Assembly: GCF_003290185.1 (NCBI RefSeq)
Contig: NZ_QNFY01000002.1
Span: 248,001-312,000, forward strand
Reading direction: 5' to 3'
DNA from: Chryseobacterium lathyri
GTDB taxonomy: Bacteria; Bacteroidota; Bacteroidia; Flavobacteriales; Weeksellaceae
Length of the DNA: 64,000 bases
Shown: piece after piece, positions 1 through 4,156 of the stretch
Layout: every line of letters begins with the position of its first letter
How positions within the stretch are numbered: position 1 is the stretch's first letter
Made by a program: the position numbers and the translations under genes
Notes under the pieces: generated by a model
What the model saw: the letters and a program-made list of their open reading frames with translations, nothing else
Databases searched by the model: none
What the model was told of the DNA's origin: nothing

Positions 1-1814
1 TCTATCGCATCATTAATAAAACTTGCATACAGCATGGTATACGAATTCTTATACAAATAAGAGAGTTCTATATTATCGGTTGTATAGGCATTTAGAAACG
101 GATTACCCTCAGCATAGTTAAAAGATGTACTATAAAATCTGAAAGGATTCAGGTTATTATATGTAGGTCTGTTAATTCTCCTGTTATAATTGAGGCCAAC
201 AGACTTATCCTCTTTAAAAGAATAACTTATGTTGAATGTGGGAAACAGCATAAAATATTTATTTTTATTTTTTTGAGAGAGAGTAACCGAATTTCCCTCT
301 GTTTGCGTATTCTCTCCACGGAATCCCAGCTGAACTTCTACTTTGTCATTGAGCTTTTTTGACCCGGATATATACAATGCCTGTGTATTTTCTTTGTATT
401 CAAAACTATTGGATTTTAAAGGATCTGGTTCAGAAATGCCACGCGTGGTATTGAAAAAAGAAACATTACTTTCGTTATTAATAAAAGTGAGTTTTGCTCC
501 AAAATTCAGCTTGACCCATTGCGTCGGGTAATCAAAATCCAATCTGGATGTAATGATATTTACATCAAGGTTACTGCTGTTCCTGGCTGAAAAATAGTTT
601 TCCGGCTTCAATGTATTATCTGAGAAGTAAGAATTACTACTGAAATTATTCAATGAACTTGTGCTAAAATCCAGGTAATCAAAATCATAACTTATTTTAC
701 GGCCTATTGTATCCAATTTGATAACAGAATATAGATTAAATGCATTTGAATGTCGATTAATCTCGATTCTTGAATTGTTTTGAATCAAAGAGTCCAATAT
801 CTGAGAATTATTAAAGATGGACGAATTGTTTTGTGATTTAATCAGTGGATTACTGATAGAACCTGAATATTCGCCTCCTATTCTTATTTTATTATTGATC
901 TTATAATCAATTGTAAATCGGCCGCCAAAATTATTTATATAATTTCTTTTAGTGTTTTCTTCTTTCCATGTATAGTTTGGATATTCAAGAGTGTACCTTT
1001 GATAGGGCTCCTGGCTGCCGTTTCCATAGTTCACACTTGATGTAAATGTAAGCTTGCCTCTGTTATAATTAAATCCCGTCCCTATATTTGAACTTAACCT
1101 TTTAGATTGTGTTAATGTGAATCTTACATTCCCATTATAAGAATCTGTCTTTACATTTTTTGTAATAATATTAATAAGTCCGCTGTTTCCCTGTGCATCA
1201 TACTTAGAGGGTGGGCTTGTTATTACTTCTATTGATTTGATATCTTCGGTCCGGATATTTTTCAGGAAATTGGCAAGATCATCACCCGAAAGATTAAGCA
1301 TTCGGTCATTAACCATTATAGACATACTGCTTTTTCCAATCATTGAAATCTGATTATTTTGAACAAACAAGCCGGGGGTTATGTTTAAAGCATCCATGGC
1401 GTCTCCACCTGTAGCCGAAATTGAATTTTCTACATTGAAAACAAGTCTGTCAACTTTTCTTTCAATCAGTTTTTTCTTTTTCAAAATGTTAATTTCCTGG
1501 ATCGAAATCTCTTTATTGTCAATTGTTATTTTTTCTTTAGTATCATTTATAATTTCCAGGTTTTTTTCATAGATTAATTTTCCATCTTTCAACACGGATA
1601 GTTTATAATTTCCATTTTGAGGAACTTTAATGAAGAAATTTCCTTTCTCATCACTAATAGCGGAGAATCGTGTTTTTTCTTGGCTCACAGAAACTTCAGC
1701 ATAATCAATGCCGGTCTGTTGAGAACTCATCAGCCTTCCCGTTATACTTTGCCCATTTATAATTATTCCAGTAAAGAGAATAATGATCTTAAAAAGAATT
1801 GATATATTTTTCAT
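1..1814 (-). CDS. TonB-dependent receptor-like outer membrane beta-barrel protein, 3' end beyond window
   Basis: An open frame runs from an ATG at 1814 to the left edge without a stop (about 604 residues seen), so the C-terminus is missing. The start MKNISILFKIIILFTG...GQ is a signal peptide. It is followed by a carboxypeptidase-regulatory-like beta-sandwich (about 22-100), a plug-like stretch with GGDAMDALNITPGLFV, MIGKSSMSIMVNDR and IEVITSPPSKYDAQGN...GLINIITK, then a long Asn/Tyr/Ser-rich region of alternating strands typical of OMP_b-brl_3 barrels. Such proteins import ligands across the outer membrane with TonB energy. The substrate cannot be told. Two palindromic operators lie 40-93 bp upstream, linking it to the LuxI/LuxR-like genes next door. 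Confidence 0.85.
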   Translation of the reverse strand, partial: MKNISILFKIIILFTGIIINGQSITGRLMSSQQTGIDYAEVSVSQEKTRFSAISDEKGNFFIKVPQNGNYKLSVLKDGKLIYEKNLEIINDTKEKITIDNKEISIQEINILKKKKLIERKVDRLVFNVENSISATGGDAMDALNITPGLFVQNNQISMIGKSSMSIMVNDRMLNLSGDDLANFLKNIRTEDIKSIEVITSPPSKYDAQGNSGLINIITKNVKTDSYNGNVRFTLTQSKRLSSNIGTGFNYNRGKLTFTSSVNYGNGSQEPYQRYTLEYPNYTWKEENTKRNYINNFGGRFTIDYKINNKIRIGGEYSGSISNPLIKSQNNSSIFNNSQILDSLIQNNSRIEINRHSNAFNLYSVIKLDTIGRKISYDFDYLDFSTSSLNNFSSNSYFSDNTLKPENYFSARNSSNLDVNIITSRLDFDYPTQWVKLNFGAKLTFINNESNVSFFNTTRGISEPDPLKSNSFEYKENTQALYISGSKKLNDKVEVQLGFRGENTQTEGNSVTLSQKNKNKYFMLFPTFNISYSFKEDKSVGLNYNRRINRPTYNNLNPFRFYSTSFNYAEGNPFLNAYTTDNIELSYLYKNSYTMLYASFINDAI

Positions 1815-1853
1815 CCTTAAAACCAAAGATAAAAAGCCGTTTTTTTTTTGATG

Positions 1854-1907
1854 CTACACAAAAGTGTAGTATTGTTGGTGATTAACTAAAACTACACCTT
1901 GGTGTAG
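1854..1907. promoter_or_regulatory. Pair of CTACAC-N4-GTGTAG palindromes upstream of the receptor gene
   Basis: 16-bp dyads occupy 1854-1869 (spacer AAAA) and 1892-1907 (spacer CTTG); the second extends to AACTACAC...GTGTAGTT. Their centres are 38 bp apart. They sit just upstream of the receptor start (1814) and overlap the last codons of the synthase gene, including its TAG stop. The same motif pair occurs at 2569-2622. Size and symmetry resemble lux boxes; binding by the adjacent LuxR-type protein is an inference. Confidence 0.75.
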
Positions 1908-2519
1908 TTGTTGGCTCTTACTGCATAAAAGATGTCTGTGTTTATCAAGGAAATTTTTTAATCCCCCATAAGGAAGAATTACCGGCACTGTTTCAGAGCC
2001 TAAATAATGGATAGATTCAGTAATAGCAAAAGCCTCAATACCCAATATTTTAAGAGTTCTTAATAGTTTTATGTCACATTCTGCGACTGCAACAACATTA
2101 CTGTGCATGCAGACCTCGTTAATGGCACAAGCCATCAATGTTTTGAACAAACGAATGCCTGTCTCGTTGGGATTTTTTTTTATGGCAAATCTTCCAATAT
2201 GCCAGACCTTATATTGGTTAATATCAATGAGCTCCTTAAGGTTTATGGAAAACATTCTTTCAATAGGAAGTTTATCACGATAGTTCCATCGTAGAGTTCT
2301 TATAGATCCAATGATTTCGTCGTCATAATTTTTTGCAACCAGAATCTTCGAATTGGAAAAACATAATTCTTCATCATGAATGTACTTTATTTCTTTATCC
2401 ATAATGTTTTGAATATCAGGTGTTTTTTCATCGTGGTGTGAAAAATTTTCTTCTACAACAAACTTCGCAAGCTCCTCTAAATCAGTCTTTTTTAAAACAG
2501 ATAGTTTAATGTTTTTCAT
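1854..2519 (-). CDS. LuxI/FeeM-like GNAT-fold N-acyl synthase (putative)
   Basis: 221-residue protein without signal peptide. The segment GSIRTLRW (71-78), LPIERMF (84-90) and VWHIGRFAI (105-113) follows the order of the LuxI pattern G-S-x-R-L ... LP ... F ... W-E-x-S-R-F-A-V. A second half with AECD (147-150), LGI (159-161) and HYLGSETVPV (171-180) matches the FeeM/autoinducer-synthase form of the GNAT fold. The LuxI Glu and Ser are replaced here (WHIGR instead of WEISR), so the acceptor may not be S-adenosylmethionine. A FeeM-type N-acyl amino acid synthase or another acyltransferase is possible. It is divergent from a LuxR-type regulator with paired palindromes between, and its 3' end is overlapped by two more palindromes. 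The product is unknown. Confidence 0.6.
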   Translation of the reverse strand: MKNIKLSVLKKTDLEELAKFVVEENFSHHDEKTPDIQNIMDKEIKYIHDEELCFSNSKILVAKNYDDEIIGSIRTLRWNYRDKLPIERMFSINLKELIDINQYKVWHIGRFAIKKNPNETGIRLFKTLMACAINEVCMHSNVVAVAECDIKLLRTLKILGIEAFAITESIHYLGSETVPVILPYGGLKNFLDKHRHLLCSKSQQLHQGVVLVNHQQYYTFV

Positions 2520-2568
2520 GGTTTTAGTTATTTTAAACTAAATTTATTTTGAATTTAATAGGATGTTG

Positions 2569-2622
2569 CTACACTTTTGTGTAGATTTGTTATTAAATGT
2601 TTAAAACTACACTTTTGTGTAG
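2569..2622. promoter_or_regulatory. Pair of identical CTACACTTTTGTGTAG palindromes in divergent promoter region
   Basis: Two identical 16-bp dyads at 2569-2584 and 2607-2622, centres 38 bp apart, in the 127-bp gap between the synthase-like gene (start 2519, minus) and the PAS-LuxR gene (start 2647, plus). The spacing equals that of the pair at 1854-1907. They probably bind the LuxR-type product and control both genes; this is inferred from position and symmetry. Confidence 0.8.
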
Positions 2623-2646
2623 TGGGACGTTTTTTTACTAATAAAC

Positions 2647-3405
2647 ATGGATGATATTGATAAATTTTTTTCCGAAAAAAATACTGTACACAAATTATCA
2701 CAAAACGAACTGTTGCAGGCTTTTGATTATCTCGAGCCTGTAAAGACATTTGCAAGAATAACCTATAAAAGCATTTATATTATAGATTATCAGAAAAAAA
2801 CATTTGAGTATGTTTCAGATAATCCTCTATTCTTGTGTGGACATTCCCCAAGTGAAGTTCAACAGCTGGGGTATGCTTTTTATTTTAAACATGTGAAACC
2901 TGACGATTTGGAACTGCTGCTCAAAATAAACGAGGTAGGGTTTAATTTTTATGAGAATATCCCTGTTGAAGAAAGAAAGCAATACATTATTTCGTATGAT
3001 TTTCATTTGGTAAAAGACAATAAAAAAAACATTTTGATCAATCACAAACTTACCCCCCTTTTTTTAACAAACGAAGGGAAAATCTGGAAAGCAATGTGTA
3101 TTGTATCTCTTTCTCAAAATAATAAATCCGGAAATATTGAAATATTGAAAGATGGGAGTGATGAGATATGGAAATTTAACCTTTCACAAAATGAATGGGT
3201 AAAGAGTGCCAAAATAAAGCTTACAGACAGAGAAAAAGAAATTTTATTTCTGTATGCCCAAGGCCTAACGATTAATGAAATAGCAGAAAAGATATATTTG
3301 ACTCCAGATACTGTTAAATTTCATAGGAGAAAACTCTTTGATAAGATCAGTGTTCAGAACATAACAGAAGCACTGGCATATGCCACCAATAACAAATTAC
3401 TGTAA
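2647..3405 (+). CDS. PAS-like domain, LuxR-type HTH transcription factor
   Basis: 252-residue cytoplasmic regulator. The N-terminal part (about 38-155: SIYIIDYQKKTFEYVSDNP, GHSPSEVQQLGY, then a beta-rich stretch) is a PAS-type sensor as found in many Flavobacteriia regulators. The C-terminus (about 190-250: LTDREKEILFLYAQGLTINE, IAEKIYLTPDTVKFHRRKLF) is a LuxR/GerE helix-turn-helix. There is no receiver domain, so it is not a classical response regulator; it may sense a small molecule. The start lies 24 bp after the last palindrome. It ends 1 bp before the convergent ThiF-like gene. By context it is the likely binder of the four CTACAC palindromes, which is not proven by sequence alone. Confidence 0.85.
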   Translation: MDDIDKFFSEKNTVHKLSQNELLQAFDYLEPVKTFARITYKSIYIIDYQKKTFEYVSDNPLFLCGHSPSEVQQLGYAFYFKHVKPDDLELLLKINEVGFNFYENIPVEERKQYIISYDFHLVKDNKKNILINHKLTPLFLTNEGKIWKAMCIVSLSQNNKSGNIEILKDGSDEIWKFNLSQNEWVKSAKIKLTDREKEILFLYAQGLTINEIAEKIYLTPDTVKFHRRKLFDKISVQNITEALAYATNNKLL

Positions 3406-3406
3406 A

Positions 3407-4156
3407 CTATTCCATAATAGATGTGAAATAAAATTCAGGGAATTGTCTGAAACTTTTACCTGTAGCAATTTTATATAAAAGAGTAGTGCATATTCCAGCG
3501 ACAAGCCACGAGCCAATAGCAAGCTGTGGAGGAGGTAGAAGCTCTTCTTCCTCTTTGTAACTCATTATTATTTTATCAAGCCAGTCCACATTTTGACCAG
3601 TTTTTTTTAAGTATTGAGAGGCGAATATAACAACATTCAATTCATTCATGCTGTTTTCGTCTCCCAGAGTTTCTAAATTTTGGCTATCTGGTGTTATTGT
3701 CGTAACCAAACCGGCCCATCCTAAATTATAAGGGTGTAAAACTGTGATTTTCTTTTCCTGGCAGGCCCTATCAAATAAAACAGGAATAGTGGAAGTAAAA
3801 TCGAGCGCATTAAAAGCAACAGAAACATTTTCAAGAATCCGGTCTAAGTTTTCTTTAGTTATAAACTCATTAATGTATCGGATACTAGCTTCAGGATTAA
3901 TGTTTTTAAGACGATTATATAAAGACTCAGCCTTATACATAGAAACCTCCTGATCAGTATAATTTTGCCGATTAAGGTTCGAAACGTCTATAATATCACC
4001 ATCTATAAGGGTAATATTTTCAAATCCGAAACGTAAAGCACATTCGGCAATATTACTTCCGATTCCATTTCCAGCCAATAGTATAGGGTAATTTTTGATA
4101 ATATGTTGCTCTTCAGGACTTACGTAAATCCTGTTTCTTGAATATCTATCGTTCAT
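3407..4156 (-). CDS. ThiF/MoeB/E1-like adenylyltransferase
   Basis: 249 residues. The Rossmann adenylation fold is clear: LLAGNGIGSNIAECALRFGF (27-46) is the nucleotide-binding glycine loop, LIDGDIIDVSNLNRQ (50-64) holds the Asp and NxxR/Q residues that bind ATP. The family activates a C-terminal carboxylate (of a ubiquitin-like carrier, peptide or small molecule) by adenylation. Only three cysteines are present (39, 132, 223); the paired CxxC zinc motifs of ThiF/MoeB are absent. No ubiquitin-like carrier protein is seen nearby. The tail of this gene abuts the LuxR gene (1-bp gap, convergent), placing it with the synthase-regulator pair. A role in making or modifying the putative signal is conjecture. 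Confidence 0.8.
   Translation of the reverse strand: MNDRYSRNRIYVSPEEQHIIKNYPILLAGNGIGSNIAECALRFGFENITLIDGDIIDVSNLNRQNYTDQEVSMYKAESLYNRLKNINPEASIRYINEFITKENLDRILENVSVAFNALDFTSTIPVLFDRACQEKKITVLHPYNLGWAGLVTTITPDSQNLETLGDENSMNELNVVIFASQYLKKTGQNVDWLDKIIMSYKEEEELLPPPQLAIGSWLVAGICTTLLYKIATGKSFRQFPEFYFTSIME

Follow-up and report, generated by a model that had tools for sequence, protein, structure and literature searches.

A candidate autoinduction circuit made of a FeeM-type synthase, a ThiF-like enzyme and a PAS-LuxR regulator before natural-product genes in Bacteroidota

A stretch of 64,000 nucleotides of Chryseobacterium lathyri (G000:C2:248001-312000, hereafter the window; part of a genome of 4,857,652 bases, or 4.86 Mb) carries three genes, for a putative signal synthase (SYN), a putative signal receptor (LuxR) and an adenylating enzyme (ThiF), which are accompanied by tandem palindromic operators. 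The locus probably encodes a quorum-sensing-like, autoinducing circuit by which Bacteroidota turn on a cluster for a secreted natural product. The gene set, the operators and the geometry of the operators are real and conserved. Protein families, folds, gene set, operator geometry, co-occurrence and adjacency to genes for ribosomally synthesized and post-translationally modified peptides (RiPPs) or nonribosomal peptide synthetases (NRPSs) were all computed, and it is on these that the proposed circuit is built. An earlier note, written from the letters of the window, had described a self-contained circuit of signal synthesis and response at this place, and that view is supported by the folds and by the conservation of the trio and its palindromes.

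Results

A conserved trio of genes

The three genes occupy the positions given in the earlier note, and are as follows.

1854-2519, minus strand: SYN, putative signal synthase, a FeeM-type GNAT N-acyltransferase of 221 amino acids (open reading frame, Pfam, fold).
2647-3405, plus strand: LuxR, putative signal receptor, a PAS-LuxR transcription factor of 252 amino acids (open reading frame, GerE, fold).
3407-4156, minus strand: ThiF, a ThiF/E1-like adenylating enzyme of 249 amino acids, putative cyclase of the acyl product (open reading frame, PF00899).

SYN and LuxR are divergent, and ThiF is convergent with LuxR and abuts it.

To see how widely this arrangement is kept, 103 distinct loci (L005, L036-L079 and L080-L159, minus identical SYN sequences) were gathered with SYN as the only query, the operator playing no part in the choice. 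In 101 of them SYN and LuxR are divergent. Of the remaining two, one (L050, identical to L153) is an orphan copy of SYN in C. balustinum, and the other (L136) lies at a contig edge. ThiF lies within the examined stretch in 80 of the 103. The neighbourhood survey suggested earlier as a check thus finds both the trio and the palindromes next to homologues of SYN.

Two genome samples were searched, one of 296 genomes of the family and one of 395 genomes from across the phylum. SYN relatives occur in 43 of the 296 family genomes, the window genome included, and ThiF orthologues in 44, with both present in 42, SYN only in 1, ThiF only in 2 and neither in 251 (p 2e-47). Phylum-wide, SYN occurs in 12/395 genomes, nine of them outside the family and three (G000, G043 and G091) shared with the family sample, and the same 12 have ThiF; the circuit is far from universal in the phylum. 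A collection of named genomes gave 123 SYN relatives. Among the 80 of these 123 that were listed, the closest are from Chryseobacterium, and the others come from Kaistella, Cruoricaptor, Riemerella, Flavobacterium, Tenacibaculum, Aquimarina, Zobellia, Kordia, Lacinutrix, Mesonia and further genera, from metagenome-assembled genomes labelled Saprospiraceae, Spirosomataceae and Marinoscillum, and from a small contig labelled Zambryskibacteria that is probably misbinned.

Operators at a fixed distance from promoter boxes

Four CTACAC-N4-GTGTAG palindromes had been noticed beside and between the genes. All four are exact, and the genome has no other exact copies. They are arranged as two pairs in tandem, with a repeat of 38 bp in each. 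One pair faces SYN and the other an outer-membrane barrel gene to its left.

1824-1831, minus strand: -7-like box TATCTTTG belonging to the barrel gene, at precisely +38 relative to the start of the operator.
1854-1869: operator, barrel-proximal, overlapping the 3' end of SYN (exact palindrome).
1892-1907: operator, barrel-distal, 38 bp from 1854-1869 (exact palindrome).
2539-2546, minus strand: -7-like box TAAATTTA of SYN, which departs from TAnnTTTG at one position and likewise lies at precisely +38 relative to the start of the operator.
2569-2584: operator, SYN-proximal (exact palindrome).
2607-2622: operator, SYN-distal, 38 bp from 2569-2584 (exact palindrome).

With up to two mismatches, the window holds 6 such palindromes, where 0.68 are expected from shuffling. 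The same degenerate palindrome is present in 98/101 SYN-LuxR intergenic regions, as opposed to a mean of 0.36 and at most 2 in base-shuffled regions. Shuffling, uniqueness in the genome and recurrence between SYN and LuxR led us to reject chance as the origin of the palindromes. The commonest distances between paired palindromes are 38 bp (39 times), 28 bp (12 times) and 39 bp (6 times), 28 bp being one helical turn less than 38 bp.

The position of the promoter box is equally constant. In 85 of 101 regions, a TAnnTTTG box with at most one mismatch (none in 40) begins on the strand of SYN exactly 38 bp beyond the first base of the palindrome, while the second most frequent offset is found 6 times. 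The same +38 module recurs after SYN, before the next gene, in 57/103 loci (other offsets at most 6), and upstream of thiF in 46 of the 79 loci where that promoter could be judged (other offsets at most 2; the eightieth thiF is too near the end of its stretch). A fixed offset to a promoter box at three different promoters does not favour the palindromes being RNA terminators. We take TAnnTTTG to be the -7 consensus of Bacteroidota, and the placement of start sites rests on it; with the box so read, the centre of the operator would fall near -41, the place of LuxR-type activators at class II promoters. On the plus strand at 2569-2590, the right arm of the palindrome runs into TAGATTTG, a -7-like box of luxR, and an exact box towards luxR overlaps a palindrome arm in 19/101 regions. 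Because of this overlap, luxR may be repressed at the palindrome, that is, by its own product.

The module follows the regulator from genome to genome. A LuxR orthologue (best E<=1e-78) was found in 113 of the 296 family genomes, a cut-off set after the list was seen, which left out 15 genomes whose matches were weaker (40-48% identity in those for which it was given). The full module, with at most one mismatch, occurs in 105 genomes, and a reversed-pattern control gave 0 in the genomes listed. Both LuxR and module are present in 99 genomes, the module only in 6, LuxR only in 14 and neither in 177 (Fisher p 7e-55), and from this co-occurrence we infer that LuxR binds the operator. The idea that the module marks only the synthase was rejected, for 58 of the 70 genomes that have LuxR without SYN contain it.

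Genome G522, from another family of the same class, offers a natural variation. Its LuxR reads SVKVYRKSLL where the others read TVKFHRRKLF, and its operator is TACCCANNTGGGTA, with palindromes TACCCAATTGGGTA again 38 bp apart; TAATTTTG stands at +38 towards SYN, and GATCTTTG, with one mismatch, at +38 upstream of thiF. In this lineage the recognition helix appears to have changed in step with the sequence of the operator, with the geometry kept, which is one case, but a case of the right kind.

In genome G052 (L184:8118-9018), a module precedes a short frame judged cysteine-rich by eye and an ABC transporter gene; no SYN was found there.

SYN belongs with FeeM by profile and fold

SYN contains the residues GSIR...LP...F...VWHIGRFAI that had suggested a LuxI/FeeM-like synthase, and the FeeM half of that suggestion stands. 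The Pfam profile PF21926 (FeeM) matches SYN with 28.6 bits against a curated cut-off of 27, and 22/30 SYN relatives match it at E<=0.01. The LuxI half does not stand: PF00765 (Autoind_synth) gives no match to the window SYN at E<=5, and only 1 of 30 relatives matches it, at E 0.0048. By profile, SYN is a FeeM-type protein and not a member of the LuxI family, and its catalysis is putative. WHIGR stands in SYN where LuxI-type enzymes have WEISR.

A structure model of SYN (predicted local distance difference test score, pLDDT, 86) places FeeM 2g0b at rank 1 among PDB folds (Z 16.7, root-mean-square deviation 2.9, 171 residues aligned), with 10% identity across the structural alignment. LasI follows at Z 15.8 (root-mean-square deviation 3.7, 181 aligned), and the fold is also close to BjaI. 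FeeM and LasI hence rank above the best general acetyltransferase-type entries (Z <=14.5), with which TofI (Z 15.2) and RpaI (Z 14.8) are tied. For this reason, an ordinary acetyltransferase was rejected as the best description of SYN, although the gap of 16.7 and 15.8 to 14.5 is small, and Foldseek E-values alone, whose top list is mixed, fail to separate FeeM and synthases of N-acyl homoserine lactones (AHLs) from general GNAT proteins. A profile search of SYN against PDB sequences gave no match, so the link between SYN and FeeM rests on Pfam and fold.

The palindrome at 1854-1869 doubles as coding sequence for the last residues and stop of SYN (YTFV and stop); YTFV or a similar C-terminus recurs in several SYN relatives.

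The regulator resembles VqmA

The description of the regulator as PAS-LuxR is borne out by different means for its two parts. The GerE domain is evident from Pfam (53.6 bits in LuxR; present in 20/20 members scanned). The PAS domain is hardly recognized by Pfam (PAS_9, in only 1 of the 20 members) and comes from the fold search, in which PAS proteins are listed first. Autoind_bind is not among the Pfam matches of the window LuxR or of the 20 members. With the LuxR model (pLDDT 90.7), the best Foldseek match is 3clo of Bacteroides, followed by VqmA (6kju, 6ugl, 7dwm and 6ide; E 3e-8 to 1.5e-6), some of whose structures contain the autoinducer 3,5-dimethylpyrazin-2-ol (DPO); the light-responsive LOV protein EL222, SdiA and RhlR are lower in the list. 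The modelled regulator therefore resembles VqmA, a PAS-LuxR protein, and not the AHL-binding LuxR family, and its ligand binding is putative.

LuxR without SYN is found in 70/296 genomes. Of the columns that are near-invariant in SYN-linked LuxRs, five such solos keep 258/265 cells in the PAS domain and 90/90 in the helix-turn-helix (HTH). By analogy with the LuxR solos of Proteobacteria, these proteins may listen to neighbours. In a mirror-tree comparison of 79 loci, distances between SYN sequences agree more closely with those of the PAS domain than with those of the HTH (partial r 0.65 vs 0.32), which is weak support because the whole block is inherited together and all distances correlate.

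The module of solos L160, L161 and L162 points to a divergent small gene of up to ~130 amino acids. In L164 and L165, no frame of at least 60 amino acids starts divergent to LuxR behind the module.

ThiF nearly always accompanies SYN

A ThiF-type gene beside the regulator, as proposed earlier, is confirmed by PF00899, which matches with 117 bits and spans residues 5-236 of the 249. R63, K75 and D119 are invariant in 18 sequences and, judging from MoeB, presumably have catalytic roles. The protein has three cysteines, at 39, 132 and 223, and no CxxC pair, and therefore seems closer to an adenylating cyclase than to an E1 of the sulfur or ubiquitin type. PDB entries 9EGB, 9EGC and 9EGD belong to the same family over the full length (E 1.4e-89). 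They have seven chains per entry, suggesting a higher-order assembly. In the open-licence literature of PubMed Central (PMC), no paper with the code 9EGB was found, and none with 9EGC or 9EGD among the 30 of 624 matches listed.

ThiF had seemed to be missing from several Flavobacterium and Chryseobacterium loci, a view that was rejected when genome searches found it ~11 kb away in seven. In these 7 family genomes thiF is displaced by ~11-12 kb, and 6 of the 7 keep the module, with two mismatches in G091; thiF of G043 has none. Near-perfect co-occurrence, retention of the module by displaced genes and a tandem SYN2-ThiF2 pair in genome G382 together indicate that ThiF most likely works alongside SYN and is not tied to a particular cargo. 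It is an almost invariable partner that probably acts on the product of SYN.

That second, diverged pair (L183:1438-2914) has 7 bp between its genes. SYN2 has the motif WHLGRLA and gives no Pfam match at E<=1; the pair adjoins a LytTR-like response-regulator gene, and the 3.6-kb stretch contains no LuxR or RiPP genes. It is possibly a related two-enzyme pathway.

Genes behind the module

The gene to the left of SYN is the following.

1-1826, minus strand: OMP_b-brl_3 outer-membrane barrel gene, its 3' end beyond the window (PF14905, 206 bits).

Judged from the sequence, its start is more likely an ATG at ~1814 than the TTG at 1826. The operator module stands at the promoter of this gene, which extends past the left edge of the window (L005:9440-11827). 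It had been regarded as either output or importer: the former agrees with what was found, as the barrel is one putative output gene and often the first of a RiPP or other cluster, and the latter gained no support. Continuing from the barrel gene, outside the window, are genes for a 74-amino-acid double-glycine-leader peptide (L005:9071-9295; 97% identical in C. luteum, L080), a 410-amino-acid radical-SAM/SPASM protein, for which NCBIfam gives YhhB, FxsB and XyeB, maturases that form cyclophanes, as best matches, all below their cut-offs, and a 724-amino-acid C39 peptidase-ABC exporter. The core of the peptide repeats QSY-type units, making it a candidate new RiPP.

Other lineages carry other cargo, the families of which were named from one or two scanned members each: NHLP-leader precursors with LanM dehydratase, NHLM-type HlyD and outer-membrane efflux genes, LanC-like proteins, NRPS modules and NusG-like genes. 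A RiPP or NRPS mark is present in 73/103 loci, a C39-ABC family exporter being counted as a mark. Since the cargo varies and marks of this kind are so frequent, the circuit looks like a general switch before secreted natural products.

A NusG-like gene (one member scanned) is the first after SYN, behind the module, in 12 loci, e.g. L149:7973-8506. It is possibly an antiterminator devoted to the NRPS genes located further on in some loci (L101, L135).

Discussion

In the circuit proposed here, SYN would N-acylate an amino acid, with acyl-(acyl carrier protein) or acyl-coenzyme A as the donor, and ThiF would adenylate the carboxylate of the product and cyclise it to an oxazolone-type ring, or to a lactone or thiolactone if the amino acid allows. 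The cyclic product would be bound by the PAS domain of the divergent LuxR, dimers of which would occupy the tandem CTACAC-N4-GTGTAG operators and activate promoters with a TAnnTTTG box 22 bp downstream of the proximal operator. Activation of the SYN promoter would create positive feedback. Also activated would be the promoter of thiF in many relatives and those of the output genes, which in the window genome would be the barrel, the double-glycine-leader peptide of 74 amino acids, the cyclophane-type radical-SAM/SPASM maturase and the C39 peptidase-ABC exporter. We infer the substrate, the product and its role as a signal, ligand and DNA binding, activation and density dependence.

A wider proposition, tentative and in our judgement somewhat easier to doubt than to accept, is that Bacteroidota have a quorum-sensing family of their own. 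Its signal would be an N-acyl amino acid cyclised by ThiF, as a distinct enzyme that depends on ATP, to an acyl-oxazolone, lactone or thiolactone, a two-enzyme, S-adenosylmethionine-independent route to AHL-like molecules; its receptor would be PAS-LuxR, acting through an operator/promoter switch before RiPP and NRPS clusters and heard also by many LuxR-only listeners, and it could explain the AHL-like activity of flavobacteria.

Several observations weigh against the proposed circuit. The FeeM score of SYN is barely above the cut-off, 8 of 30 relatives lack a FeeM match at E<=0.01 and WHIGR replaces WEISR, so the substrate and activity of SYN are putative. The regulator may sense something else, because 70 genomes keep LuxR without SYN. 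Fourteen genomes with LuxR have no module, 6 with the module have no LuxR, and thiF has none in the window or in 33/79 loci. G050 and G052 have ThiF next to LuxR with no SYN match in the stretches examined. In G137, whose contig runs ~0.45 kb past luxR, SYN is accompanied by no ThiF found in that stretch or in the rest of the genome, possibly owing to a contig break, a displaced gene or a true loss. The SYN of G522 is only a fragment, covering profile positions 75-139 and with one stop, and 30/103 loci bear no recognised RiPP or NRPS mark. Moreover, related loci share ancestry, so locus counts are not independent events. A flavin oxidase was seen in none of the scanned neighbour families (a subset of the neighbours was covered, and no search of whole genomes was made), for which reason the ring might remain saturated or else be a lactone or a thiolactone; an oxazolone left saturated would be reactive.

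The closeness to RiPP and NRPS genes in 73/103 loci also invites the explanation that SYN and ThiF tailor the neighbouring natural product, for example by acylating or adenylating its peptide, with LuxR an ordinary pathway regulator that senses something else. RiPP-acylating GNAT enzymes exist. Moreover, the ThiF-like enzymes MccB and PaaA are described as modifying RiPPs (PMC12250964; PMC12150305). We nevertheless regard this explanation as unlikely. SYN and ThiF stay paired whatever the cargo, be it radical-SAM, NHLP/LanM, LanC-like, NRPS or none recognised, the SYN2-ThiF2 pair does so with no LuxR or RiPP genes in its 3.6-kb stretch, and SYN has its own operator-bearing promoter divergent from LuxR. 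In addition, as PF00899 covers residues 5-236, the 249-residue ThiF leaves no room for the N-terminal RiPP recognition element described for MccB and PaaA (PMC12250964).

It is quite unlikely that the regulator senses redox, light, heme or a host metabolite, and that SYN and ThiF make a membrane lipid or another metabolite under its control. PAS domains bind many ligands, the light-responsive EL222 is also in the Foldseek list of the LuxR model, and the 70 genomes with solitary LuxR would agree with such a sensor. Against it, operators at SYN, and often at thiF, make a feedback loop, the PAS columns kept in the five solos (258/265) are those expected of eavesdroppers, and the tracking of PAS over HTH by SYN (0.65 vs 0.32, 79 loci) points the same way, albeit weakly for a block inherited together. 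Equally, SYN might be thought an S-adenosylmethionine-dependent AHL synthase in the manner of LuxI, with ThiF as an accessory, that explains the AHL-like activity of Bacteroidetes. Its fold is indeed close to LasI, TofI and BjaI, and N-butyryl homoserine lactone is reported from Tenacibaculum maritimum, as well as from three further strains of Bacteroidetes (PMC4304359). The locus itself is present in several species of Tenacibaculum, T. maritimum not being among the 80 of 123 relatives listed. Such an enzyme is highly improbable here, given the PF00765 result (no match for SYN at E<=5, one relative in 30 at E 0.0048) and a receptor lacking an Autoind_bind match, and it would render the near-invariable ThiF superfluous.

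Most of what is known about acyl-signal quorum sensing comes from Proteobacteria. For Bacteroidetes, too, AHL-like activity is on record (PMC4304359), and no description of a circuit like the present one in Bacteroidota was found in open-licence PMC papers, subscription papers and preprints lying outside the search. The locus supplies a concrete synthase, cyclase, receptor and operator, all putative, together with several different outputs, and it has been conserved across many flavobacteria and in some of their relatives, frequently with genes for antibiotic-like compounds as neighbours. If the autoinduction circuit operates as proposed, it would predict when flavobacterial RiPP clusters switch on and would provide a simple DNA signature with which to find them. 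Acyl-oxazolone-type molecules would gain a possible biological role, and a PAS receptor with a FeeM-type synthase would represent the logic of quorum sensing built from different parts.

Comparison with known systems

LuxI/LuxR systems are characterized by a divergent synthase and regulator, a palindromic operator, positive feedback, LuxR solos and a link to antibiotic-type genes. The present locus is like those of Proteobacteria in its divergent synthase and LuxR-HTH genes, a palindrome upstream of the synthase promoter, the geometry of feedback, its solos and its antibiotic-type genes. It is unlike them in that the synthase is of FeeM type and not PF00765, the regulator has a PAS-like domain and not Autoind_bind, ThiF is near-invariable, and the phylum and promoter type are different; the operator sequence, too, is unlike a lux box. 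With FeeM (PDB 2G0B), SYN shares the Pfam family, just above the cut-off, and the closest fold, but it differs in its 10% identity, its HIGR motif and its pairing with LuxR, ThiF and operators. VqmA of Vibrio cholerae, the receptor of the autoinducer DPO, provides the best named functional matches of the LuxR model and has the same PAS and LuxR-HTH architecture, although its identity to the window LuxR is low, ~14 to 17%, and DPO is not an acyl signal.

The closest counterpart of the two enzymes is found in the tyz and trz pathways, in which, as described, an amino-acid N-acyltransferase and a ThiF-like enzyme make N-acyl oxazolones through ATP-dependent cyclisation, with desaturation by a flavin oxidase, and TyzA was modelled closest to FeeM and the AHL synthase BjaI (PMC10404671, PMC12856293). 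Genes for a synthase, ThiF and a nitroreductase are likewise reported together for stieleriacine-type N-acyl tyrosines (PMC12479983). As in TyzACB, TrzAS and OxzAB, the putative N-acyltransferase gene here lies close to a gene for a ThiF-like enzyme; a flavin oxidase is adjacent or fused in those systems but is not among the scanned neighbours here, where LuxR with its operators is present, and PMC12856293 does not contain the word LuxR. The authors of that study likened acyl-oxazolones to acyl homoserine lactones (PMC12856293).

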